Of a DNA stretch of 64,000 nucleotides, positions 6,556 to 47,868 are shown piece after piece. The stretch is taken from positions 6,076,001 to 6,140,000 of the forward strand of contig NZ_LR594662.1 of NCBI RefSeq assembly GCF_901827175.1. The letters are read 5' to 3'. A model generated the notes under the pieces. The model ran no database searches. It saw only the letters and a program-made list of their open reading frames with translations, and was not told where the DNA came from. Position numbers and translations under genes: made by a program. Source of the stretch: Variovorax sp. RA8 (lineage in GTDB: Bacteria > Pseudomonadota > Gammaproteobacteria > Burkholderiales > Burkholderiaceae_C). The stretch's first letter is position 1, and every line of letters starts with the position of its first letter.

Positions 6556-7773
6556 ATGAAGAAACACCGCATGAATCTCAGCCTGCGTCCGAACCTCATC
6601 GCCACGCTGACGGCGATCACCATGGCGGGCCTGGGCGCGCCGGCCCAGGCGCAGAGCTACCCCGTCACGCCGCAGCAGCGCGCGACGGCGCAGCAGGCGG
6701 CGCAGGCCGGCGTGCCACTGTCCGAGCTGGCACCGAACGCGCCCGACGAGTACACGGTCAAGCCGCGCGACACGCTGTGGGCCATCTCCCGCCTCTACCT
6801 GCGCAGCCCCTGGCGCTGGCCCGAGCTGTGGGGCATGAACATGGGCGAGATCCAGAACCCGCACCGCATCTATCCCGGCCAGGTGCTGTACCTCGACAAG
6901 AGCGGCGGCCGCGCGCGCCTGGCGCTGCGCCGTGGCGGCAGCGGCATGCCCGATGGCGGCACCATCAAGCTCTCGCCGCGCACGCGCTATGAATCGCTGT
7001 CGGACATGGCGTTGCCCACGCTGAATCCCAGTGTGATCGAGCCCTTCCTCGCCGAGCCGGTGGTGGTCGACGCAGAGACGCTGGCGACCGCACCGCGCAT
7101 CGTGGCAGGCAACGACAGCCGCGTGGTACTGGCGCGCGGTGACCGGGTCTATGCACGCGGCGAACCCAGCGCGCCGCTGATGGAAGCGCCCGGCCCGATC
7201 CGGACCTACCGCGTGTTCCGTAACGCGACCCCGCTCAAGGACCCGGGCACGGGCGAGATCCTCGGCTACGAAGCGCAATACGTGGGCAAGGCCCAGCTGC
7301 AGCGTGGCGAGTCGAGCGCCAAGGAAGAGGTGGAGGGCAAAGAGGTCGTGTACCCGGTGCCGGCCAGCCTCGACATCGTCGCCACTCGCGAGGAGATCCG
7401 CGCCGGCGACCGATTGCTCCCCGAGCCGCCGCGCCAGCTGCTGAGCTATGTGCCTCGCGCCCCGGGGCACACCATCGCCGACGGTCGCATCGTCTCGGTC
7501 TACGGCAACGCAGTGCAGTACGCGGCCCAGAACCAGGTGGTGGCCATCAACAAGGGCACCATCGACGGCATCGAGAACGGCCACGTGCTGGCCATCCTCA
7601 AGAACGGCGACACCATCGTCGACAAGACCGGCGCCACCAAGGAAACGCTGAAGCTGCCGAACGAGCGGATCGGCCTCTTGATGGTGTTCCGTCCCTTCGA
7701 GCGAGTCTCGTATGCGCTGGTGCTCGAGATCAACGACGCGCCGCGCATCGGCGACCTGCTGATCAACCCATGA
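6556..7773 (+). CDS. secreted LysM peptidoglycan-binding protein
   Basis: 405 residues from ATG 6556 (an ATG at 6571 would also keep the signal peptide). A signal peptide ends near APAQAQ. One LysM domain follows (about residues 60-115: YTVKPRDTLWAISRLYL, then IQNPHRIYPGQVLYL), which binds glycan strands of peptidoglycan. The long C-terminal part is unrecognised and contains beta-rich blocks such as ILAIL/NGDTIVDKTG. It precedes dprA, a familiar arrangement in betaproteobacteria (from recall). Likely periplasmic or envelope-associated; no catalytic domain seen. Confidence 0.85.
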   Translation: MKKHRMNLSLRPNLIATLTAITMAGLGAPAQAQSYPVTPQQRATAQQAAQAGVPLSELAPNAPDEYTVKPRDTLWAISRLYLRSPWRWPELWGMNMGEIQNPHRIYPGQVLYLDKSGGRARLALRRGGSGMPDGGTIKLSPRTRYESLSDMALPTLNPSVIEPFLAEPVVVDAETLATAPRIVAGNDSRVVLARGDRVYARGEPSAPLMEAPGPIRTYRVFRNATPLKDPGTGEILGYEAQYVGKAQLQRGESSAKEEVEGKEVVYPVPASLDIVATREEIRAGDRLLPEPPRQLLSYVPRAPGHTIADGRIVSVYGNAVQYAAQNQVVAINKGTIDGIENGHVLAILKNGDTIVDKTGATKETLKLPNERIGLLMVFRPFERVSYALVLEINDAPRIGDLLINP

Positions 7774-7851
7774 GCCGCACGGCCGCTCCGAAGGCGTATA
7801 GCACCGCAGCCGAAGGCGAAGGTACTCCAGTGCCCCGGCCCCAGCCATCGC

Positions 7852-8988
7852 GTGGAACGTGACGAACTCGCGGGCTGGCTGAGGCTCACGCTGACGCCGG
7901 GCATCGGCAACACGGCCGCGCGCAAGCTGCTCGCGGCCTTCGGTCTGCCAGCGGAGGTCTTTGCCCAACCCGCAACGGCGCTCCGGCAGGTCGTGGCCGA
8001 GGCCCAGGCCAGCGCGCTGCTCGAGCCGCCGGCCGAGCTCGACGCGCTGCTCGACCGCACCTTCGAGTGGCTCGGGACCAGCGCGCCGCAGGGCGCGACG
8101 CACCGCATCCTCACGCTGGGCGATCCCGCCTATCCGTCCTCGCTGCTCGAGACGGCGGATCCGCCTCTGGTGCTCTACTTGATCGGGCCGGCGCCGCTCG
8201 AGCTCGCGCAGCTGTCGCGCAGCATCGCGATGGTGGGCAGCCGCAATCCCACGGCACAGGGCATCTCGAACGCGCGGGCCTTTGCGCGCGCTTTCGGCGA
8301 GGCTGGCATCGCGGTGGTGTCGGGGCTGGCGCTCGGCATCGACGGCGCGGCGCACGAGGGCGCGCTGGATGCCGCCATCGATCCGCTCTGGCCGGCAACG
8401 GTGGCGGTGGTCGGCACCGGGCTGGACCGCGTCTACCCCGCGCGGCACCACGCGCTGGCGCAGCGCATCGCCGAGCGGGGGCTGATCGTGAGCGAGTTCC
8501 CCCTGGGCACGCCGCCGCTCAACCAGAACTTCCCGAAGCGCAATCGCATCATCGCCGGCCTCTCGCGCGGCACGCTGGTGGTAGAGGCGGCACTGCAGTC
8601 GGGCTCGCTGATCACCGCACGGCTCGCGAGCGAGCAGGGCAGGGAGGTGTTCGCCATCCCTGGTTCCATTCATTCGCCGCAGTCGCGCGGCTGCCATGCG
8701 CTGATCCGGCAAGGCGCCAAGCTGGTCGAGACGGTCGGCGACGTGCTCGAGGAGCTGCGCTTCGATGCGTCTCTCGTGCCGGCCGCGCCGCCGCGGCAAG
8801 AAGAGACCACCTCGCCCGCCGGGGGCCTGCTGCAGGCCATGGGCTACGACCCGGCAAGCCTGGATGCGCTGTGCGCGCGCACCGGCCACCCGGTCGCCAT
8901 CCTGCAGGCGCAACTGCTGGAGCTGGAGCTCGCCGGCCACGTGGCCCGGATGCCCGGCGGCCTGTTCCAGCGGGTCGCCCGAGGCTGA
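7852..8988 (+). CDS. dprA: DNA-processing protein DprA/Smf
   Basis: 378 residues from a GTG start; the N-terminal ERDELAGWLRLTLTPGIGN is where family members begin. The Rossmann-like DprA domain has AMVGSRNPTAQG, VVSGLALGIDGAAHEGAL, FPLGTPPLNQNFPKRNRIIAGL and an ALQSGSLITARLA block. A C-terminal winged-helix-like tail follows (about 310-378). DprA loads RecA onto incoming single-stranded DNA during natural transformation. It is followed by smg. Confidence 0.97.
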   Translation: MERDELAGWLRLTLTPGIGNTAARKLLAAFGLPAEVFAQPATALRQVVAEAQASALLEPPAELDALLDRTFEWLGTSAPQGATHRILTLGDPAYPSSLLETADPPLVLYLIGPAPLELAQLSRSIAMVGSRNPTAQGISNARAFARAFGEAGIAVVSGLALGIDGAAHEGALDAAIDPLWPATVAVVGTGLDRVYPARHHALAQRIAERGLIVSEFPLGTPPLNQNFPKRNRIIAGLSRGTLVVEAALQSGSLITARLASEQGREVFAIPGSIHSPQSRGCHALIRQGAKLVETVGDVLEELRFDASLVPAAPPRQEETTSPAGGLLQAMGYDPASLDALCARTGHPVAILQAQLLELELAGHVARMPGGLFQRVARG

Positions 8989-9053
8989 GCGCCTCCGGCG
9001 TCGCATATGGGCAATGCAACCGCGCCAACACCGACCTGGGCTATATTGGCCCC

Positions 9054-9563
9054 ATGTTCGAAGTGCTCGTGTACGTGTACGAAAACTATTGGCGCGGCGA
9101 TGCCTGTCCCGAAGCCGAGCAACTGGGCCGCAAGCTGAGCGCCCAGGGCTTCGACCCCCAGGAGATCCGCGACGCCCTGCACTGGCTCGACGGACTGAGC
9201 CTCGCCACCCAGGGCATCCAGCTCACCCTTCATGCCGAAGGCACGAGCGCGACGGTGAGCCTGGAAGGCCCGGCTGCGATGCCCGAATCACCGGGCTCGA
9301 TGCGCATTTACTCGATGGCCGAACAGGAACACCTGGGCGCCGAGTGCCTGGGCTTCATCAGCTTCCTCGAGTCTTCGGGCGTGCTGCCGGCCGGCCTGCG
9401 CGAGATCGTGATCGATCGCGCCATGGCCACGACCGGCGATCCGCTGGAACTGGGCGAGCTCAAGATCATCGTGCTGATGGTGCACTGGAGCACCGGGGTC
9501 GAACCCGATGCTCTCGTGCTGGACGAGCTCTGCGACGACACTGTGAACCGTGTCGCGCATTGA
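9054..9563 (+). CDS. smg: Smg/DUF494 family protein
   Basis: 169 residues from ATG 9054 (MFEVLVYVYENYW), which matches the highly conserved start of the Smg family. The C terminus ELCDDTVNRVAH is also typical. The function is not established; the gene is conserved next to dprA and often topB in beta- and gammaproteobacteria. Here topB is 45 kb away. The next gene is convergent, only 9 nt apart. Confidence 0.93.
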   Translation: MFEVLVYVYENYWRGDACPEAEQLGRKLSAQGFDPQEIRDALHWLDGLSLATQGIQLTLHAEGTSATVSLEGPAAMPESPGSMRIYSMAEQEHLGAECLGFISFLESSGVLPAGLREIVIDRAMATTGDPLELGELKIIVLMVHWSTGVEPDALVLDELCDDTVNRVAH

Positions 9564-12108: not shown

Positions 12109-13059
12109 TCACACCGTCGCGCCGGCGTTCGGGTCGTCCGGATCGCCTTGCTTGGGTGTCGTCTTGACCAGGTCCTCGCGCTTCACGCCCAGCCACATCG
12201 CAATCGCCGCCGCCACGAAGGCGGAAGAGTAGATGCCGAACAGGATGCCGATGGTCAGAGCCAGCGCGAAATAGTGCAGCGTCGGGCCGCCGAAGAAGAA
12301 CATCGACAGCACCACCAGCTGCGTGGAGCCGTGGGTGATGATGGTGCGGCTGATGGTGGAAGTGATGGCGTTGTCGATCACCTCGCGAGTCGTCAGCTTG
12401 CGGTATCGCCGGAAATTCTCGCGCACCCGGTCGAAGATCACCACCGACTCATTGACCGAGTAGCCCAGCACCGCCAGCACCGCCGCCAACACCGCCAGCG
12501 AGAACTCCCACTGGAAGAAGGCGAAGAAGCCCAGGATGATGACCACGTCGTGCAGGTTGGCCAGCACGGTGGCAAGCGCGAACTTCCATTCGAAGCGGAA
12601 GGCCAGGTAGATCATGATGCCGACCACCACCATGCCCAGTGCCTTGAGGCCGTTGGTGGTGAGCTCCTCGCCCACCTGAGGGCCGACGAATTCGTTGCCG
12701 CGCAAGGTGGCGGAGGCGTCGACCGCCTTCAGCGCCGCCATCACCTGATCGCTCTGCTGGGCCGAGGTCTGCCCCTTCTGCACCGGCAGGCGGATCTGGA
12801 TGTCGCGCGAGGTGCCGTAGTTCTGCACCTGCACGTCGGGATAGCCGAGCTTGGCGACGGTCTCGCGCACCTTGCCCACGTCCACCGACTGCTGGTAGGC
12901 GACCTCCATGACGGTGCCGCCGGTGAACTCCACCGACAGGTGCAGCCCGCGGTGGAACAGGAAGAAGACCGCCAGCACGAAGGTGAGGACAGAGATCGCG
13001 TTCAGCACCAGCGCATAGCGCATGAACGGGATCGTGCGGTGGATTCGGAAAAACTCCAT
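12109..13059 (-). CDS. secF: protein translocase subunit SecF
   Basis: 316 residues, normal length. Inner-membrane RND-like partner of SecD. It has one N-terminal membrane segment, a periplasmic domain starting FTGGTVMEV, and a C-terminal five-segment block with the family signature ALGYSVNESVVIFDRVREN. It lies 15 nt behind secD. SecDF uses the proton motive force to assist SecYEG-dependent export. Confidence 0.98.
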   Translation of the reverse strand: MEFFRIHRTIPFMRYALVLNAISVLTFVLAVFFLFHRGLHLSVEFTGGTVMEVAYQQSVDVGKVRETVAKLGYPDVQVQNYGTSRDIQIRLPVQKGQTSAQQSDQVMAALKAVDASATLRGNEFVGPQVGEELTTNGLKALGMVVVGIMIYLAFRFEWKFALATVLANLHDVVIILGFFAFFQWEFSLAVLAAVLAVLGYSVNESVVIFDRVRENFRRYRKLTTREVIDNAITSTISRTIITHGSTQLVVLSMFFFGGPTLHYFALALTIGILFGIYSSAFVAAAIAMWLGVKREDLVKTTPKQGDPDDPNAGATV

Positions 13060-38060: not shown

Positions 38061-39308
38061 TCAGATCACGCCTTCCTGGCGCAGCATCGCCAGGTCGTCC
38101 GCGCCGTAGCCCAGCTGCCGCAGCACTTCCTCGGTGTGCTCGCCCAGCAGCGGCGAGCGCGTCACCTCGGTCGGGCTGTCCGACAGCTTGATGGGATTGC
38201 CCACCGTCAGGTACTTGCCCCGGGTCGGGTGTTCGACCTCGACGATGGTGCCGCTCTCGCGCAGCGATTCGTCGGCGGCGATCTCCTTCATCGAAAGGAT
38301 CGGCCCGCAGGGAATGTCGTACCGGTTGAGGATCTCCATGGCCTCGAACTTGTCCTTGGTCATGGTCCATTGCTCGATGCGCGCGAAGATCGGCTTCAGG
38401 TGCAGCAGGCGCGCGGCCGGCGTGGCATAGGCCTCGTCGGTGATCCAGCCCTCCTCGCCGATCACCTTGCACACCGCCGGCCAGACCGCGGCCTGCGTGA
38501 TGAAGTAGATGTAGGCGTTGGGATCGGTCTCCCAGCCCTTGCAGCGCAGGATCGAGCCCGGCTGGCCACCGCCCGAGGCGTTGCCGGCGCGCGGCACCGC
38601 GTCGCCGAACTTGCCGTCGGGGTACTGGGGGTATTCGTGCAGGGTGCCGGTGCGCTCCAGCCGCTGCTGGTCGCGCATCTTCACGCGGCAGAGGTTGAGC
38701 ACGGCGTCCTGCATCGGCGCCAGCACCTTCTGGCCACGCCCCGTGGTGTTGCGCTGGTAGAGCGCCGCCATGATGCCGAGCGCCAGGTGCAGGCCGGTCC
38801 CGCTGTCGCCGATCTGCGCGCCGGTGACGACCGGCGGGCCGTCCTCGAAACCGGTGGTCGACGCCGCGCCGCCGGCGCATTGGGCCACGTTCTCGTACAC
38901 CTTGCAGTCGGCGTACTTGCCGGGCCCGAAGCCCTTGACCGAAGCCACGATCATGCGCGGGTTGAGGTCCTGGATATGGCTCCAGGTGATGCCCATGCGG
39001 TCCAGCGCGCCGGGCGCGAAGTTCTCGACCAGCACGTCGCAGGTCTTGATCAGCGTGTCCAGCACCTGCTTGCCCTTGGGCTTCTTGGTGTCCAGCGTGA
39101 TCGAGCGCTTGTTGTGGTTCAGCATCGTGAAGTAGAGGCTGTCCACGCCGGGAATGTCGCGCAACTGGCCACGCGTCGCGTCGCCCTCGCCGGCGCGCTC
39201 GACCTTGATCACGTCGGCGCCGAACCAGGCCAGCAGCTGGGTGCAGGTGGGGCCGGACTGCACATGGGTGAAATCCAGGATGCGGACGCCTTCGAGGGCC
39301 TTGCTCAT
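38061..39308 (-). CDS. frc: formyl-CoA:oxalate CoA-transferase paralog 1
   Basis: 415 residues from ATG 39308. Class III CoA-transferase: [28 protein letters not shown] and the catalytic Asp in [12 protein letters not shown] (Asp168, equivalent to Asp169 of the Oxalobacter enzyme). The glycine loop reads SGGGQ (245-249) instead of GGGGQ. Frc moves CoA from formyl-CoA (or succinyl-CoA in some relatives) to oxalate. A PAS gene is 10 nt upstream. About 70% similar by eye to paralog 2. Confidence 0.9.
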
Positions 39309-39874: not shown

Positions 39875-41137
39875 TTAGATTGCCTTGGCTTCGCGCAGAT
39901 TCGCGATCTGCTCCTTCGAGTATCCCAGCTCGGCCAGCACCTCCTCGCTGTGCTCGCCCAGCAGCGGCGACGGGGTGATCTCCGGCTTCAGGTCGGAGAA
40001 CTTGATCGGGCTGCCGACGGTGAAATAGTTGCCGCGCTCCTTGTGGCCCTTCACCTCAACGATCGAGCCGCTCTTGCGCAGCGATTCGTCGTGCAGCAGC
40101 TCCTTCATGGTCAGCACCGGGGAGCAGGGGATGTCGAACTTGCGCAGGATGTCCACCGCCTCGAACTTCGTCTTGTCGGCCAGCCAGTCCTCGATGGTCG
40201 CGAAGATCGCGGTGATGTGCGGCTGGCGTGCCTTGGCCGTCATGTAGTCGGGGTCGGTCTTCCACTCGGGCTTGCCGATGGCATCGCAGATCGGAGCCCA
40301 GGCGTGGCCCTGCACCGTGAAGTAGATGTACGCGTTGGGGTCGGTTTCCCAGCCCTTGCACTTGAGCACCCAGCCCGGCTGGCCCCCGCCGCCGGCATTG
40401 CCGCCCCGCGGCACGACGTCGCTGAAGGTGCCGTGCGGGTACTGCGGGTACTCCTCGAGATAGCCGAGCCGGTCCAGGCGCAGCTGGTCGCGCATCTTCA
40501 CGCGGCAGAGGTTCAGCACGGCGTCTTGCATCGCGCAGGCCACGCGCTGGCCCTTGCCGGTCTGCTGGCGGCCGATGATGGCGGTCAGGATGCCGATCGC
40601 CAGGTGCATGCCGGTGTTGCTGTCGCCCAGGGCGGCGGCGCTCACGGTCGGCGGGCCGTCCCAGAAGCCGGTGGTCGATGCCGCGCCGCCGGCGCACTGC
40701 GCGACGTTCTCGTACACCTTCAGGTCGTCATAGTGGTGGCCGTCGCTGAAGCCCTTGACCGAGGCGACGATCATCTTGGGATTGAGCTCCTGGATGCGCT
40801 CCCAGGTGAAGCCCATGCGGTCGAGCGCGCCGGGGCCGAAGTTCTCGACCAGCACGTCGGATTCGCGGATCAGCTTCTCCAGCACGACCTTGCCCTCCGG
40901 CTGCTTGGTGTCCAGCGTCAGCGAGCGCTTGTTGCTGTTGAGCATGGTGAAGTACAGCGCATCGACATCCGGAATGTCGCGCAGCTGCGTGCGCGTGACG
41001 TCGCCGGAGCCCGGGCGCTCGACCTTGATGACGTCGGCCCCGAACCAGGCCAGCATCTGAGTACACGCGGGCCCGGCCTGGACATGGGTGAAGTCGATGA
41101 TCTTGATGCCGTTGAGGGGTTTGTTGTTGCTGCTCAT
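39875..41137 (-). CDS. frc: formyl-CoA:oxalate CoA-transferase paralog 2
   Basis: 420 residues. Same fold as paralog 1: [28 protein letters not shown], catalytic Asp172 in [12 protein letters not shown] and the canonical flexible glycine loop GGGGQ (249-253). It is 25 nt behind oxc, so this is the likelier true Frc of the oxalate cycle: oxalate + formyl-CoA to oxalyl-CoA + formate. Located in the cytoplasm. Confidence 0.95.
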
Positions 41138-41162: not shown

Positions 41163-42950
41163 TTACTTCTTCTTCGCCGCGCTCGGGTTGAGACTGGTGA
41201 TGCGGCCGCTTTCGGTGCCGGCGGTCTCGTCGATCACGGCGTTGATCAGGGTCGGGCGGCCGGAGGCGACGGCCTCGCTCAGGGCCTTCTGCAGCTCTTC
41301 CGCAGTGGTGGCGTGCACGCCGACGCCGCCGAAGGCCTCCATCAGCTTGTCGTAGCGCGCGTCCTTGACGAACACGGTCGGCGCCACGTCGGCGGTGCCG
41401 CTGGTGTTCACGTCGGTGCCGCGGTAGACGCCGTTGTTGTTGAAGACGACGACGCAGACCGGCAGGTTGTAGCGGCAGATGGTCTCGACCTCCATGCCGC
41501 TGAAGCCGAAGGCGCTGTCGCCCTCGATGGCGATCACCGGCTTGCCGGTGACCACGGCCGCGGCGACGGCAAAGCCCATGCCGATACCCATGATTCCCCA
41601 CGTGCCGACGTCGAGGCGTTTGCGCGGCTCGTACATGTCGACGATGCTGCGTGCGAAGTCCAGCGTGTTGGCGCCCTCGTTGACGACGATCGCATCGGGC
41701 CGCGCCTTCACCTGGTCGCGGATCACGCTGAGCGCGCTCTGGAAGTTCATCGGCGAGGGCCGCGCGGCCAGCGTGGCCGCCATCTTCGAGAGGTTCTTGT
41801 CCTTGCGCTCGGCGATGCCGCCGGTCCAATCGGCCGGGGGCTTGGCCCAATTGCCGTCGATGCCCGCGAGCAGCGCCGACACGCAGGAGCCGATGTCGCC
41901 GATCACGGGCGCAGCGATCGCGACGTTGCTGTCGATCTCGGTCGGCGCGATGTCGATCTGGATGAACTGCTTGGCGCCCTTGTCCTGGCCCCAGGTCTTG
42001 CCCTTGCCGTGCGACAGCAGCCAGTTGAGGCGCGCGCCGACCAGCATCACCACGTCGGCTTCCTGCAGCACGTAGGAGCGCGCGGCGGCGGCCGATTGCG
42101 CATGGGTGTCGGGCAGCAGGCCCTTGGCCATCGACATCGGCAGGTAGGGGATGCCGGTCTTCTCGACCAGCGCGCGGATGTCGACGTCGGCCTGCGCATA
42201 GGCCGCCCCCTTGCCCAGCAGGATCAGCGGCCGCTTGGCGCCCTTGAGCAGATCGAGCGCGCGCTTCACCGCGTCGGGCGCGGGGATCTGGCGCGGCGCC
42301 GGGTCAACCACCTTGATCAGCGACTTTCGGCCGGCCTCGGCATCCAGGGTCTGCGCGAACAGCTTGGCCGGCAGGTCCAGGTACACGCCGCCCGGGCGGC
42401 CCGAGAGGGCCGAACGGATCGCCCGCGCGATGCCGACACCGATGTCCTCGGCGTGCAGCACGCGAAAGGCAGCCTTGCACAGCGGCTTGGCGATCGCGAG
42501 CTGGTCCATCTCCTCGTAGTCACCCTGCTGCAGGTCGACGATCTCGCGCTCGCTGGAGCCGCTGATCAGGATCATCGGGAAGCAGTTGGTGGTGGCGTTG
42601 GCCAACGCCGTGAGGCCGTTGAGGAAGCCGGGCGCCGACACCGTGAGGCAGATGCCGGGCTTCTGCGTCAGGAAGCCGGCGGCCGCGGCGGCGTTGCCGG
42701 CATGCTGCTCGTGGCGAAAGGAGATCACCCGCATGCCCTCGGCCTGCGCCATGCGCGTGAGGTCGGTGATCGGGATGCCGGGCAGGCCGAAGATCGTGTC
42801 GATGTCGTTCAGCTTCAGCGCATCGATTACCAGGTGGAAGCCGTCGGTCGTCTCGCGGGCCGGCGCGTCGTCCGTCATGTTCTTGAGGGCCCGCGCGACC
42901 AGCTCGTCGGCGGTCGAGTCGGCCTGCTTGGCGGTGCTGACTGAGGACAT
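41163..42950 (-). CDS. oxc: oxalyl-CoA decarboxylase
   Basis: 595 residues from ATG 42950 (an extended frame upstream is an artefact of open sequence). Thiamine-diphosphate enzyme: catalytic Glu81 in [14 protein letters not shown]; the cofactor block [21 protein letters not shown] with NNNGVYRG; central domain with [10 protein letters not shown]. These match oxalyl-CoA decarboxylase specifically rather than acetolactate synthase. It converts oxalyl-CoA to formyl-CoA + CO2. A divergent Crp/Fnr gene and a palindrome lie upstream. Confidence 0.95.
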
Positions 42951-43023
42951 GTCTCTCCTTGTGCTTGGGTATGAATGGCCAGGGGCCGAGCCACGACTAT
43001 GATTCGAGGCCAAGCTGCAGCCG

Positions 43024-43037
43024 TTGACCTTGGTCAA
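43024..43037. promoter_or_regulatory. FNR-type operator between oxc and the Crp/Fnr gene
   Basis: TTGACCTTGGTCAA (extended by G and C to 16 bases): half-sites TTGAC and GTCAA separated by four bases, the layout of FNR-family sites (TTGAT-N4-ATCAA). It lies in the 153-nt divergent region, 73 nt from the oxc start and 66 nt from the regulator start. The same sequence is present at 47855. Confidence 0.75.
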
Positions 43038-43103
43038 CTTTCCGGAAAACGACACCGGCTCGATGAACCGGCGGTCGTCGCGATATCGAGCAAGACGGGA
43101 CCC

Positions 43104-43712
43104 ATGACCCTGTTGGAAAACCACCCGGAGAAAAACATCATTCGTGCCCAACTCCGGCAGAACATCCTTCTCAAGGAACTGAGCGAGGGTGACCGCGCCG
43201 AGCTGGAGTCCCACCTTGCCGTGGTGGACGGAAACAAGGGCGACTTCCTGCTGCACCAGGGCGTGCGCGAGATGGAGCAGTACTTCATCCTCGACGGCAT
43301 CCTCAAGCGGGTGGTGAGCAATCCGGCGGGCAAGGAAATGATCCTGCGCTTCGCCGACGAGAACGACATGGAGACCAGCTACGCCGCCCTGCGGCTGGGC
43401 ACGCCGACGCCGTACGGCATCGTCTGCGTGACCAAGGCGCGGGTTGCCAGCCTGCCGCTGAAGGAGTGGATTGCCTTTCTCAACCGCCACCCCGACACGA
43501 AGGAGCTGTTCGAGTTCAGCGTGATGCGCGGGATGAGCGAGATCATGGCGCACACCATCACGCTGCACCTGCTGGACGCGCCGGGCCGCGTGCACCGCTT
43601 CATGCGCAAGCATCCGGAACTGGTGGATCGGATTCCGAGCAAGGAACTGGCCTCCTATCTCAATCTGTCGGCGGAGACGCTCAGCCGGTTGAAGAAGCGC
43701 GGAAAGATCTGA
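43104..43712 (+). CDS. Crp/Fnr-family transcriptional regulator
   Basis: 202 residues from ATG 43104. N-terminal cNMP-binding-type beta roll ([25 protein letters not shown]; residues ~20-115), long dimer helix, and C-terminal HTH (177-199, [24 protein letters not shown]). The recognition helix has E191-x-x-S194-R195, the FNR-type code for TTGA half-sites. There is no N-terminal FNR Cys cluster, so it is not an O2 sensor of that type. It is divergent from oxc and probably regulates it. Confidence 0.92.
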
Positions 43713-43713
43713 C

Positions 43714-44550
43714 TCAGGTCTGCTTGGCCGAGGCGAAGCGGCGCGTGCCGGTCATCAGTCGCAGTTCGTTGGTCACGCCCGAGACACCAGGCACCGCGAT
43801 GGCCACGTGCTCGGCCTGCTCGCGCTCCTCGGCGTCGAGGACGATGCCGCGCAGCTTCACATCGCCCTGCTTGGCCTGGATGGTGATGCTGATGTCGCGC
43901 GTCTCCTCGTGCTCCTTGAGCGCCGCGCGCACGCGCGCCTCGAGTGCCATGTTGGCCAGCAGGGCGCGCGACTCGGATGTCTCGGCGAATTCCGGGCGTT
44001 GCGTCATCAGGCGGATCAGCTCCACGCAGCTGTCGACCGAGACGCGATCGGTGTTGAGCACCAGGTCGTAGAGCACCGGGTCGCCCCAGGTCACGCCGAA
44101 CTGCTCGTGCATGCGCGAGGCGTGCGCGTGGTCGCTGCGCCGGATCTCGGCCTCGGCGAACTCGGCATCATCGGTGCCGAGGTGGGCCATCAGCCACTCG
44201 ATGCGCTTCCTGAGCGAGCGCGTGACGCGCACGCACAGCACATGCGGCACCGGCCGCAGCAGGCAGGTGGCACCCCAGCCGCGCAGCACCACGTTACCGC
44301 CGTCTGCCAGCGAGAACACTTCTTCCGCCGTATAGAGCGCGACGCTGCGGCGGTCGGTGGTCAGGCGCTCCACCAGGCCGGCCTTGCCGTCGCGCAGCCG
44401 GCCGATCAGGCTGGTCGACACCTGCGCCCTGTCGGCCACGCGCTCGATGGCCTCGTGGCGCATGACGGCCAGTCCGAGCGCGCCGGCGAGCTGCAGCGAC
44501 ACGTCCTTGGCGAGGGAACCCATTTCCTGGGTCATTGCGATGACGGGCAT
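43714..44550 (-). CDS. cytidylate-kinase-like protein with C-terminal BON domain
   Basis: 278 residues. Residues 1 to ~195 fit the cytidylate kinase-like family ([65 protein letters not shown]). Residues ~210-270 fit a BON domain ([42 protein letters not shown]). The N-terminal loop lacks a classical GxxxxGK[ST]. No signal peptide. Last gene after tctA (13-nt gap). Function unclear. Confidence 0.85.
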
Positions 44551-44563
44551 GCGGCCTCCTCGA

Positions 44564-46093
44564 TCAGTCCACCGGCCGTTCGGCGGCGAACTCGTCAGGC
44601 TTTTTTGGCTTGATCATCGCCAGCACTTTCGAGATCAGCGGCCAGAAGAGCATGGTCAGCGCCAGCGTGGTGATGCTGCCCACCAGCGGGTTCGACCACA
44701 TGATGCCGACCTCTCCCTGCGAGACCAGCATGGCTTGGCGGAAGGAGTCCTCGGCCTTGTCGCCGAGCACCAGCGCGAGCACCAGCGGCGCGAGCGGGAA
44801 GTCGAGCTTCTTGAAGATGTAGCCCACCACGCCGAAGCCGAGCATGAACCAGATGTCGAGCATCGCGTTGTGCACGGTGTAGGCGCCGATCGCGCAGATC
44901 ACGATGATCACCGGCGCGATGATCGAGAAGGGAATGCGCAGGATCGAGGCGAACAGCGGCACCGTGCTCAGCACTACGATCAGCCCGACGACGTTGCCCA
45001 GGTACATGCTGGCGATCAGGCCCCACACGAAGTCCTTCTGCTCGACGAAGAGCAGTGGGCCCGGCTGCAGGCCCCAGATCAGCAGGCCGCCCAGCAGCAC
45101 CGCCGCGGTGGGCGAACCGGGGATGCCCAGCGCCAGCATCGGCAGCAGGGCGCTGGTGCCGGCGGCATGCGCCGCGGTCTCGGGCGCGACCACGCCCTCC
45201 ATCTCGCCGGTGCCGAACTTGGGCCCCCGCTTCGACATCTTCTTGGCCAGGCCGTAGCTCATGAAGGAGGCCGGCGTAGCACCACCGGGCGTGATGCCCA
45301 TCCAGATGCCGATCAGGGAGCTGCGCAGCGAGGTGACCCAGTACTGCGGCAGCTGCTTCCAGGTCTGCAGCACCACCTTGGGATCGATCTTGGCGCTCTT
45401 GCCGGAGAACTTCAGCCCCTCCTCCATCGACAGCAGGATCTCGCCGATGCCGAACAGGCCGATGACCGCGATCAGGAAGTCGAAGCCGCGCATCAGCTCC
45501 GGCTGGCCGAAGGTCAGGCGCAGTTGCCCGGTCACGGTGTCCATGCCGACGCTGGCGAGCGCGAAGCCGAGGGCCATCGATGCCAGGATCTTGAAGGGCG
45601 AGCCCTTGCCCATGCCGACGAAGCTGCAGAAGGTCAGCAGGTAGACGGCGAAGAACTCCGGCGAGCCGAACTTGAGCGCGAACTTGGCCACCAGCGGCGC
45701 CAGGAAGGTGATCATCACCACCGCCAGGAAGGCACCGACGAAGGACGAGGTGAAGGCGGTGGTGAGCGCCGCGCCCGCCTTCCCTTGCTGGGCCATCGGG
45801 TAGCCGTCGAAGGTGGTGGCCACCGACCAGGGCTCGCCGGGGATGTTGAAGAGCACGGAGGTGATCGCCCCGCCGAACAGCGCACCCCAGTAGATGCAGG
45901 ACAGCATGATGATGGCCGAGGTCGGCGACATCGTGAAGGTGAGGGGCAGCAGGATCGCCACGCCGTTGGCGCCGCCCAGCCCGGGCAGCACGCCGATCAA
46001 CACACCCAGGATGATCCCGACGAACATCAGGACGATGTTCATGGGGGTCAGGATCACGGCGAAGCCCTGCATCAGGGCGCTGATTTCATCCAT
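44564..46093 (-). CDS. tctA: tripartite tricarboxylate transporter large membrane subunit TctA
   Basis: 509 residues with about 12 membrane segments. Signature GVLPGLGGANGVAILLPLTF (family block 1) and the re-entrant MGITPGGATPASFMSYGLAKK (block 2). TctA is the permease of solute-binding-protein-dependent tricarboxylate transporters driven by ion gradients. Downstream of tctB by 21 nt. Confidence 0.96.
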   Translation of the reverse strand: MDEISALMQGFAVILTPMNIVLMFVGIILGVLIGVLPGLGGANGVAILLPLTFTMSPTSAIIMLSCIYWGALFGGAITSVLFNIPGEPWSVATTFDGYPMAQQGKAGAALTTAFTSSFVGAFLAVVMITFLAPLVAKFALKFGSPEFFAVYLLTFCSFVGMGKGSPFKILASMALGFALASVGMDTVTGQLRLTFGQPELMRGFDFLIAVIGLFGIGEILLSMEEGLKFSGKSAKIDPKVVLQTWKQLPQYWVTSLRSSLIGIWMGITPGGATPASFMSYGLAKKMSKRGPKFGTGEMEGVVAPETAAHAAGTSALLPMLALGIPGSPTAAVLLGGLLIWGLQPGPLLFVEQKDFVWGLIASMYLGNVVGLIVVLSTVPLFASILRIPFSIIAPVIIVICAIGAYTVHNAMLDIWFMLGFGVVGYIFKKLDFPLAPLVLALVLGDKAEDSFRQAMLVSQGEVGIMWSNPLVGSITTLALTMLFWPLISKVLAMIKPKKPDEFAAERPVD

Positions 46094-46114
46094 TTCGGGT
46101 TCGCTCCGTGAGGT

Positions 46115-46636
46115 TCAATAACCGAGAAAGCGAAGCGGATCGAGCGAGCCCTTGAACAGCGGCACCTTGAACCAGACTTCGAACATGAGAAAGAAGAGCG
46201 CGTTGACGGCGAACGCGATAACCGAGCTCTTCACCCAGGAGTACTTGCCCAGCACCACCATGAAGAGCGCGATGTAGACGGCCGAGGCGACATACAGGCC
46301 CAGCAAGGTGACGGCCAGCACGTAGACGGTGGCCGGCACCAGCACCGACAGCACGCGCTTGAGTTGCTCCGAATCGACGAAGACCTCGGTGTTCCTGTTC
46401 TTGCCGAGGAGCGCCTGGTAGAGGATGCCGGCGCCGGAGACCACGATGATCACCCCTATGTAGAACGGGAAGTAGCCAGCCCCAGGACCGTCGGAGGTCC
46501 AGCCCGCGCCGAGGCGGCGGCTCTCGAAGACCACGCCCAGGCCGACGATCAGCAAGACCGCTGCCACTACCGCTTCGACGATGTGGGTGCGCACGCCGAT
46601 GCGCACCGGGTTCTCGGAATTTTCGTTGTGCTCCAT
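46115..46636 (-). CDS. tctB: tripartite tricarboxylate transporter small membrane subunit TctB
   Basis: 173 residues with four predicted membrane segments (AVVAAVLLIVGLGVVF, FYIGVIIVVSGAGILY, VLVPATVYVLAVTLLGLYVA, VIAFAVNALFFLMFEVWF). Typical poorly conserved TctB between tctC and tctA. Confidence 0.9.
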   Translation of the reverse strand: MEHNENSENPVRIGVRTHIVEAVVAAVLLIVGLGVVFESRRLGAGWTSDGPGAGYFPFYIGVIIVVSGAGILYQALLGKNRNTEVFVDSEQLKRVLSVLVPATVYVLAVTLLGLYVASAVYIALFMVVLGKYSWVKSSVIAFAVNALFFLMFEVWFKVPLFKGSLDPLRFLGY

Positions 46637-46734
46637 GGAGCCCCCGTCGTGTGTGTCGAGAAAGATCGGAGGCGGAATTCCCGCCCTCCACCCGGCCGCG
46701 CAGGCGCGCGGCGCTCTGCCGCTCTGTTTACCGG

Positions 46735-47763
46735 CTACTTGGCGCTGGCGGCGATGAAGCCGGCGTCAGTCATCAGCGTGCGATGCGTGGCCTCGGCGGA
46801 GGCGAGCCACTTCGCGAATGGCTCGCCGGTCATGAAGGTCGGGTTGAAGGCCCCCTTCTCCATGTACTCCTTCCATTCCGGCGTGGCTGCCACCTTGGTC
46901 AGCAAGTCGACATAGAAGGCCAACTGGTCGGGCGTCACGCCTGCCGGCATGAAGATGCCGCGCAGCATCGTGTAGTTGGTGGGCACGCCGGCTTCCTTGC
47001 AGGTCGGGATGTCGTTCCACGACTGCGTGTCGGTGACCTTGGTCTTGAAGGGCATGCGCTCGTCGTCGAACACGCACAGCGCGCGCAGCTTGCCGGCGCG
47101 CCACTGTGCGACCGCCTCGATCGGGTTGTTGACGGTGGAGTTCACATGGCCGCCCACCAGCTGCACCGCCACCTCGCCGCCGCCCTTGAAGGGCACGTAG
47201 ATGAACTTGGTACCGGTGGCCTTTTCCAGCGCGACCGTGATGATCTGGTCTTCCTGCTTGGAGCCGGTGCCGGCCATCTTGAACTTGTTCGGGCCCGCCG
47301 CCTTGACCGCCGCGATGTACTCGCTGGCATTCTTGTAAGGCTGCTCGGCGTTGGTCCAGAGCACGAACTGGTCGAGCGCCAGCATCGCCACCGGCGTCAT
47401 GTCCTTGTAGTTGAACGGCACGCCGGTGGCCATGGGCGTGGTGAACAGGTTCGACAGCGAGATGATGATCTTGTGCGGGTCGCCTTTCGCCTCCTTGACC
47501 GCGAGGAAACCTTCGGCACCGGCGCCGCCCGACTTGTTGACGACGATCAGCGGCTCCTTCATCAACTTGTACTTGATGACGATGCCCTGCAGCAGGCGCG
47601 CCATCTGGTCGGCGCCGCCGCCGGTGCCGGCCGGGATCACGAACTCCACCGGCTTCGTCGGTTCCCATGCCAGTGCGGGCGTGGCGCCGGCGAGTGCGAG
47701 AAGGGCTGCGGCAAGCGCCTTGGTGCCATGGGTCCGGGCGCGCGAAATGATGCTGTCGATCAT
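46735..47763 (-). CDS. tctC: tripartite tricarboxylate transporter substrate-binding protein TctC (Bug family)
   Basis: 342 residues from ATG 47763. Sec signal peptide ending near TPALA. Mature Bug-family protein: PVEFVIPAGTGGGADQMARL, LIVVNKSGGAGAEGFLAVK, and KFKMAGTGSKQEDQI with a VPFKGGGEVAVQLVGGHV block. Periplasmic capture of carboxylates for TctAB. A perfect 14-bp palindrome 91 nt upstream matches the one before oxc, suggesting shared control and an oxalate or related dicarboxylate substrate. Confidence 0.95.
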   Translation of the reverse strand: MIDSIISRARTHGTKALAAALLALAGATPALAWEPTKPVEFVIPAGTGGGADQMARLLQGIVIKYKLMKEPLIVVNKSGGAGAEGFLAVKEAKGDPHKIIISLSNLFTTPMATGVPFNYKDMTPVAMLALDQFVLWTNAEQPYKNASEYIAAVKAAGPNKFKMAGTGSKQEDQIITVALEKATGTKFIYVPFKGGGEVAVQLVGGHVNSTVNNPIEAVAQWRAGKLRALCVFDDERMPFKTKVTDTQSWNDIPTCKEAGVPTNYTMLRGIFMPAGVTPDQLAFYVDLLTKVAATPEWKEYMEKGAFNPTFMTGEPFAKWLASAEATHRTLMTDAGFIAASAK

Positions 47764-47854
47764 GTTGTCTCCTGTTGAAGCTGCGCTCTTCTTGAATGGA
47801 ATCGCAGTGGAAATCCCAGTGCGGCAATGCTGCGCGCCAGCCGCAAAAGGCAGC

Positions 47855-47868
47855 TTGACCATGGTCAA
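47855..47868. promoter_or_regulatory. FNR-type operator before tctC
   Basis: TTGACCATGGTCAA is a perfect 14-bp palindrome with TTGAC-N4-GTCAA layout, as at 43024; both are followed by AACTTT. It is 91 nt upstream of the tctC start. Confidence 0.75.

Follow-up and report, generated by a model that had tools for sequence, protein, structure and literature searches.

Why should an oxalate degradation operon and a tripartite tricarboxylate transporter operon carry the same palindrome in front of them, and which protein reads it? The question is raised by a stretch of 64,000 nucleotides from Variovorax sp. RA8 (contig NZ_LR594662.1, positions 6,076,001 to 6,140,000 of the forward strand; the window, in what follows), in which a gene for a 202-residue regulator of the Crp/Fnr superfamily lies between oxc, for oxalyl-CoA decarboxylase, and tctCBA, for the transporter. 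We consider it very probable that this regulator is a dedicated local activator of oxalate catabolism that works through two operators, with TctCBA as the likely importer of oxalate.

Two operators and their conservation

The two palindromes lie as follows.

43024-43037: operator 1, TTGACCTTGGTCAA, between the divergent oxc and regulator genes; predicted centre at -41.5 for oxc
47855-47868: operator 2, TTGACCATGGTCAA, upstream of tctC

The first-pass annotation of the window had reported these 14-mers in front of oxc/crp and of tctC, and we find both there. It had also described a shared AACTTT flank; the letters do follow both sites, but their AA is the end of the palindrome itself, the bases after it being CTTTCC at operator 1 and CTTTTC at operator 2. 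Read towards oxc and tctC, a GAAAG or AAAAG stretch lies just upstream of the site and is kept in relatives. A genome-wide scan, as the annotation had suggested, found no crowd of unrelated copies: TTGACCNNGGTCAA occurs twice in the 7,424,241-bp genome, both times in the window, and the reversed-pattern control not at all. The looser form TTGACNNNNGTCAA has six exact places genome-wide and, with at most one mismatch, 133 matches per strand against 92 for the control, which is near background; specificity is thus limited to the tight form, which alone was used for counting.

To follow the sites across species, one genome per species was scanned, giving 99 relatives of the regulator; the best 80 of them (72-98% identity) were retained. 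Of these records 40 are titled Variovorax, and the remainder are mostly other Burkholderiales or metagenome bins. Each site was scored by its matches at 12 fixed positions, the search reaching 150 bp upstream of the regulator gene and 350 bp upstream of tctC. Leaving out one locus with the regulator at a contig end (L030), and one of the 59 tctC loci with 111 bp to the contig end (L056), 79 and 58 loci could be scored. All 79 regulator loci have a match of at least 10/12 before the regulator gene (66 at 12, 12 at 11, 1 at 10), and all 58 tctC loci have one before tctC (29 at 12, 18 at 11, 11 at 10), counts that are not independent because the species are related. Among random intervals from the same loci, true sites included, 3.2% at 150 bp and 9.4% at 400 bp reach that score, and among shuffled ones 0.3% and 0.9%; on these rates a chance origin of the sites was rejected. 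Moreover, both half-sites are kept with fixed spacing, and towards oxc the inner CC/GG shows at least 95% conservation, while towards tctC the CC is 91-100% and the GG 68-75% conserved. Four loci (L062, L075, L076, L079) have no strict TTGA-N6-TCAA upstream of the regulator, and instead show 11/12 matches that begin with ATGACC. Eleven further upstream stretches from genomes of the family (L117-L120, L126-L132), picked for distance or for having no exact 14-mer, all score at least 10/12; L117-L120 come from G186, G249, G277 and G347, which have the regulator, no exact 14-mer, and 10-11/12 matches upstream of the regulator gene.

The genes around the two operators, with their profile matches, are these.

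38061-39308, minus strand: frc2, second formyl-CoA transferase (TIGR03253, 722 bits against a cut-off of 504.2); the open frame reaches 39515 and the TIGR03253 match starts at residue 70-72
39875-41137, minus strand: frc1, formyl-CoA transferase (TIGR03253, 726.3 bits against 504.2)
41163-42950, minus strand: oxc, oxalyl-CoA decarboxylase (TIGR03254, 1002.5 bits against a cut-off of 739.4)
43104-43712, plus strand: Crp/Fnr-superfamily regulator, 202 residues (PF00027, cNMP_binding), recognition helix SAETLSR
43714-44550, minus strand: protein with Cytidylate_kin2 and BON profile matches, last gene of the tct operon by arrangement
44564-46093, minus strand: tctA, large membrane subunit of a tripartite tricarboxylate transporter (PF01970)
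46115-46636, minus strand: tctB, small membrane subunit (PF07331)
46735-47763, minus strand: tctC, periplasmic receptor (PF03401)

The two formyl-CoA transferase genes thus stand in tandem behind oxc, each above its cut-off, and the cytidylate-kinase-like/BON fusion gene adjoins tctA in many relatives.

Does the site follow the genes or merely the layout of the locus? Several relatives in which the locus is broken up are informative here. G276 has an exact site in front of a tctCBA-oxc-frc operon and, 0.68 Mb from it, two others, one in front of another tctCBA and one in the gap that separates the regulator from a divergent thiamine-diphosphate enzyme. In each of G249, G322 and G383, a site of its own (10-12/12) stands before oxc, before the regulator gene, whose divergent neighbour is frc2, and before oxlT, for the OxlT oxalate/formate antiporter; a few 10/12 matches also lie inside genes, as expected by chance. 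In L055, where tctCBA is found on the oxc side, it still has an 11/12 site. The rearranged loci therefore keep sites at the promoters of oxc, tctC and oxlT, which ties the site to promoters and not to position.

At a few loci (L149, at 7615-9321; L045; L051-L053) another thiamine-diphosphate enzyme, with 27-37% identity to oxc, replaces oxc and is divergent to the regulator, with the same operator between them. At four others a further site lies about 1.2-1.5 kb past the tctC site (L033 at 16057, L034 at 15479, L037 at 15535, L038 at 17206), near a histone-deacetylase-like gene and in some also a LysR-type gene, as judged by eye.

The regulator and the promoters

What kind of protein would read these sites? 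The regulator matches the cNMP-binding domain PF00027 at 36.8 bits against a cut-off of 27.5, and no Pfam helix-turn-helix model matched it. Its AlphaFold model (mean pLDDT 85.7) predicts a long dimerisation helix at 130-157 and helix-turn-helix helices at 179-185 and 190-198. No wing was found: only 7 residues follow the recognition SR, and past helix 190-198 the model has no strand. Residues E191, T192, L193, S194 and R195 do not vary among the 33 aligned proteins, in keeping with the E..SR code (E191, S194, R195) noted in the first-pass annotation; we take these recognition residues to be those that read TTGA in FNR. The sensing residues of the two best-known relatives are absent, and with no conserved cysteines the regulator is no true FNR. 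None of FNR's four 4Fe-4S cysteines was found, the one cysteine of the regulator (C108) not being conserved in the 33-protein alignment, nor were the cAMP-binding residues of CRP, whose G71, E72, R82 and S83 align with T91, S92, T102 and P103; the regulator thus has T-S-Y...T-P where CRP has its cAMP-contact motif, G-E-L...R-S. As a conjecture, a pocket for an anionic metabolite might be formed by the invariant K68, R69, K77, R82, E90-T-S-Y-A, P103-Y104 and K111. Among the homologue matches listed (120 of 8000 scored), the names are of the Crp/Fnr family or CRP-like only.

A second Crp paralogue, with 44-48% identity, occurs in 5 of the 55 regulator-bearing genomes of the family sample described below (L055, at 12180-12773; L121-L125). 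The stretch before it holds an exact TTGACCGCGGTCAA in L122 and none in L121 and L123-L125.

The arrangement of each promoter relative to the site bears on the sign of regulation. After identical promoters were collapsed there remained 61 unique ones for oxc, 57 for tctC and 67 for the regulator, the oxc set including a few loci with the other enzyme in oxc's place (L045, L051-L053). Towards oxc, a -10-like hexamer (TATCAT, TATGAT, AATCAT/CATAGT) starts about 22 nt past the site, and at least 4/6 of TATAAT is matched at gaps of 19-24 in 98% of the 61 promoters, against 3-20% in other gap intervals; towards the regulator the same gaps give 3% of the 67. In the window the predicted elements are as follows.

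42996-43001, minus strand: predicted oxc -10 element CATAGT, 22 nt from operator 1; predicted start near 42989
42999-43004, minus strand: alternative oxc -10 element AATCAT, proposed from the sequence
47827-47832, minus strand: predicted weak tctC -10 element CAGCAT, 22 nt from operator 2; predicted start near 47820

Counted from the predicted oxc start (via CATAGT), the centre of operator 1 lies at -41.5, and the conserved oxc -10 element has no suitably spaced -35-like hexamer. Together, the -41.5 centre, the conserved -10 and the missing -35 argue for activation of oxc. For comparison, a passage of PMC3688515 gives 19 of 23 FNR-activated E. coli promoters with a known start as having the site at -41.5 within 4 nt. 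The oxc promoter, with its start as predicted here, would thus have class II activator geometry. Towards tctC the mean -10 match is again highest at gaps of 19-24 (3.04), the element, CANCAT-like in many relatives, being weak, and activation of tctC is suggested less clearly, more by analogy with oxc than by a signal of its own. On autoregulation of the regulator the geometry gives nothing firm.

The transporter and other candidate targets

Why would an oxalate regulator govern a tripartite tricarboxylate transporter? The transporter is complete, TctA, TctB and TctC all being matched by Pfam, and the PDB relatives of the tctC product are UPF0065/Bug/TctC receptors. In six loci without tctCBA (L048, L049, L068, L071, L073, L074) the second site lies upstream of a major facilitator superfamily (MFS) gene, 2.1-2.4 kb from the regulator start, and in the Collimonas loci L051-L053 and in L044 it is more distant. 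Of nine MFS frames scanned beside such sites, eight exceed the cut-off of the oxalate/formate antiporter profile TIGR04259; the ninth (L049) has no match and is probably the wrong frame, as tblastn gives an oxlT relative there. Of the 17 loci in which tblastn gives oxlT, 12 reach 10/12 or more in the 500 bp before its best copy, and in L064, where both transporters are present, each has a site. Twenty stretches around extra exact sites were moreover fetched from Variovorax genomes: eight of these sites (L097-L101, L106, L109, L116) precede a frame that by eye is OxlT-like, and one (L105) a frame that by eye is TctC-like; an AAA ATPase gene follows five others and a P-type ATPase gene one, and five stretches (L107, L110, L111, L112, L114) carry no gene assignment. 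In the window's own genome nothing passes the TIGR04259 cut-off for OxlT, the best score being 57.2 against 335 bits.

Since relatives have oxlT under the same operator and OxlT is missing here, tctCBA would be doing OxlT's job; that it takes over this role in the genome of the window is the simplest reading of the gene arrangements. From the shared operator and the oxlT swap, TctCBA is most likely an importer of oxalate itself or of a close dicarboxylate. The regulon joining oxalate metabolism with a carboxylate transporter, as the first-pass annotation had it, therefore gains support, at the level of sequence, from the conservation of site, regulator and targets in relatives, from the rearranged loci and from the oxlT swap.

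The AAA ATPase gene may be a further member of the regulon in part of the genus. It occurs in 15 of 100 congeneric genomes, all 15 of which carry the oxalate regulator (hypergeometric chance 9e-5, relatedness ignored), and an exact TTGACCNNGGTCAA lies upstream of it in 14 of 14 readable genomes, the fifteenth (G057) being cut; a CTAGCAT often follows about 22 nt past the site. Shared ancestry could also cause this pattern. The stretches concerned are L102, L103, L104, L108, L115, L174-L182, L184 and L185, with Pfam AAA matched in L102, L103 and L108. That the TTGACCTGGGTCAA sites before this gene are targets of another FNR was considered and dropped, all 15 carriers of the gene having the regulator. 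In the window's genome the gene was not found at the search threshold used. L113, from a genome without the oxalate regulator, has a TTGACCTGGGTCAA site with TAGCCT 22 nt downstream before a heavy-metal P-type ATPase gene, which is perhaps a target of a true FNR.

Weighing the readings, and what they mean

How would such a regulon work? We infer that a dimer of the regulator binds TTGACCnnGGTCAA at two places. At 43024-43037 it would sit at -41.5 of the oxc promoter and serve as a class II activator of oxc-frc1, and possibly of frc2, and from there it may also control how much of itself is made; from 47855-47868 it would activate tctCBA together with the kinase-BON gene. The transporter would then import oxalate or a close dicarboxylate in place of the OxlT antiporter of relatives, and the inducer would probably be a pathway metabolite (oxalate, oxalyl-CoA or formyl-CoA) held in the cNMP-fold domain. 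A more far-reaching version, which we put forward tentatively and would rate somewhat below an even chance, is that a wingless FNR-type protein free of the cluster cysteines senses an oxalate-pathway metabolite directly and activates both degradation and uptake, with TctCBA the first tripartite tricarboxylate transporter for oxalate and the AAA ATPase added in some relatives.

The distribution of regulator, oxc and site is consistent with a dedicated regulator. Of 100 congeneric genomes, 57 carry the regulator, and exactly these carry oxc; the exact site is in all 57 (mean 2.51) against 11 of the 43 without the regulator (mean 0.37), while the reversed-pattern control has means of 0.65 and 0.33. 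Because sites, regulator and oxc mostly share one locus, this co-occurrence is mainly joint travel. In a family sample of 397 genomes, requested at a completeness of 90 or more, 60 have oxc, and 55 of these, with no others, have the regulator, with the limit that in some genomes only part of the first-look candidates were scored and a regulator could be missed there; the exact 14-mer is in 51 of the 55. Two genomes with oxc and no detected regulator (G141 and G378; L140, L141) score 9/12 at most over the roughly 2.3 and 1.9 kb before oxc, and a third (G341; L142), with two decayed pieces of the regulator beside oxc, scores no higher over about 1.5 kb. G483 was left out as an oxc-only case, its contig beginning at oxc.

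Several observations weigh against a dedicated activator with TctCBA as its importer. The relatives are not independent samples, and the genus-level co-occurrence, reflecting one locus, is not independent evidence. The exact 14-mer is also in 136 of 342 family genomes without a detected regulator, so that across the family it is not specific by itself; an exact copy may lie away from the oxalate locus, as in G202 (10/12 at the locus, the exact copy elsewhere), and G378 has one such copy away from oxc. In G144 oxc and oxlT each have an 11/12 site, but no regulator was detected, the contig ending at oxc on the side where congeners have the regulator. At the tctC promoters 4% of the 57 reach 4/6 at gaps of 19-24, against 14%, 5%, 12% and 4% elsewhere, and the other five of the 17 oxlT loci score 9, 9, 9, 8 and 7, the lowest being close to a contig end. 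Finally, a motif scan of the 20 cNMP-domain matches in the genome found two other proteins with ETVSR, one with FNR-like cysteines, and these could bind similar sites.

The last point leads to the thought that the sites serve a true FNR that senses oxygen, or a DNR-like protein, with the local Crp/Fnr protein incidental and the oxalate genes oxygen-responsive. Some JGI homologue names among the matches listed do add 'dissimilatory nitrate respiration regulator', one of the 11 regulator-free congeners with the exact site has it before the P-type ATPase gene of L113, and an excerpt of PMC7349173 reports that an FNR-type protein of Ideonella acts through TTGACTTAAATCAA. Yet the canonical FNR site, as a passage of PMC3688515 has it, is TTGATnnnnATCAA, whereas here the inner CC/GG is conserved; and where the regulator is absent or decayed no site above 9/12 is found near oxc. 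We therefore hold an oxygen-sensing FNR to be improbable. Hardly more probable is that the local protein represses at these sites until released by a pathway metabolite. Local divergent regulators are often repressors, and the site overlaps the expected -35 position; against this, the conserved oxc -10 has no -35-like hexamer properly spaced from it, and the predicted centre at -41.5 is the position that, within 4 nt, 19 of the 23 FNR-activated E. coli promoters mentioned above share. That the palindromes are mere pairs of sigma-70 -35 boxes, with TTGAC on both strands, is scarcely credible in spite of the similarity of TTGACC to TTGACA: a -10 element at 17-bp spacing would begin near gap 9, gaps 7-12 are at background (at least 4/6 in 5% of the 61 oxc promoters), and both half-sites are conserved at fixed spacing. 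We rejected it on the spacing.

A dedicated activator of oxalate catabolism has recognisable kin. With FNR and FixK it shares the E..SR recognition helix, TTGA/TCAA half-sites (TTGA-N6-TCAA operators) and the class II position; it differs in lacking the conserved 4Fe-4S cysteines and the wing, in inner bases that are CC/GG and not T/A, and in a regulon that is local and concerned with oxalate where theirs is anaerobic. CRP, one of its PDB sequence relatives (best E 1.8e-6), has the same cNMP-binding fold, but its cAMP-contact positions are replaced here and its half-site is TGTGA, not TTGA. The best PDB match, the cyclic nucleotide binding regulatory protein 3dn7 (E 2e-11), has a similarly short C-terminal helix-turn-helix with different recognition residues (EYLSEIRK). 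The oxc-frc operon with OxlT (TIGR03254, TIGR03253, TIGR04259) is a known system, and relatives have oxlT under this same operator, whereas the genome of the window has tctCBA there, with all three subunits of the TctCBA transporters and their Bug receptors. Judged by title and abstract, none of the open-licence papers that our searches found describes oxalate as a substrate of a tripartite tricarboxylate transporter or a dedicated Crp/Fnr-type oxalate regulator. The kind of regulon is known, while the regulator, the form of the operator and the likely oxalate role of TctCBA appear to be new as far as those papers go.

Oxalate-eating bacteria matter in soils and in contact with fungi, and the model of regulator, operator and promoter proposed here holds in dozens of related genomes. 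To our knowledge, the tripartite tricarboxylate transporter family is mostly without assigned substrates, and our analysis suggests a substrate for one of its members. More generally, in genomes that bear the regulator the operator could serve as a marker for more oxalate-linked genes, with the AAA ATPase gene as the first candidate.

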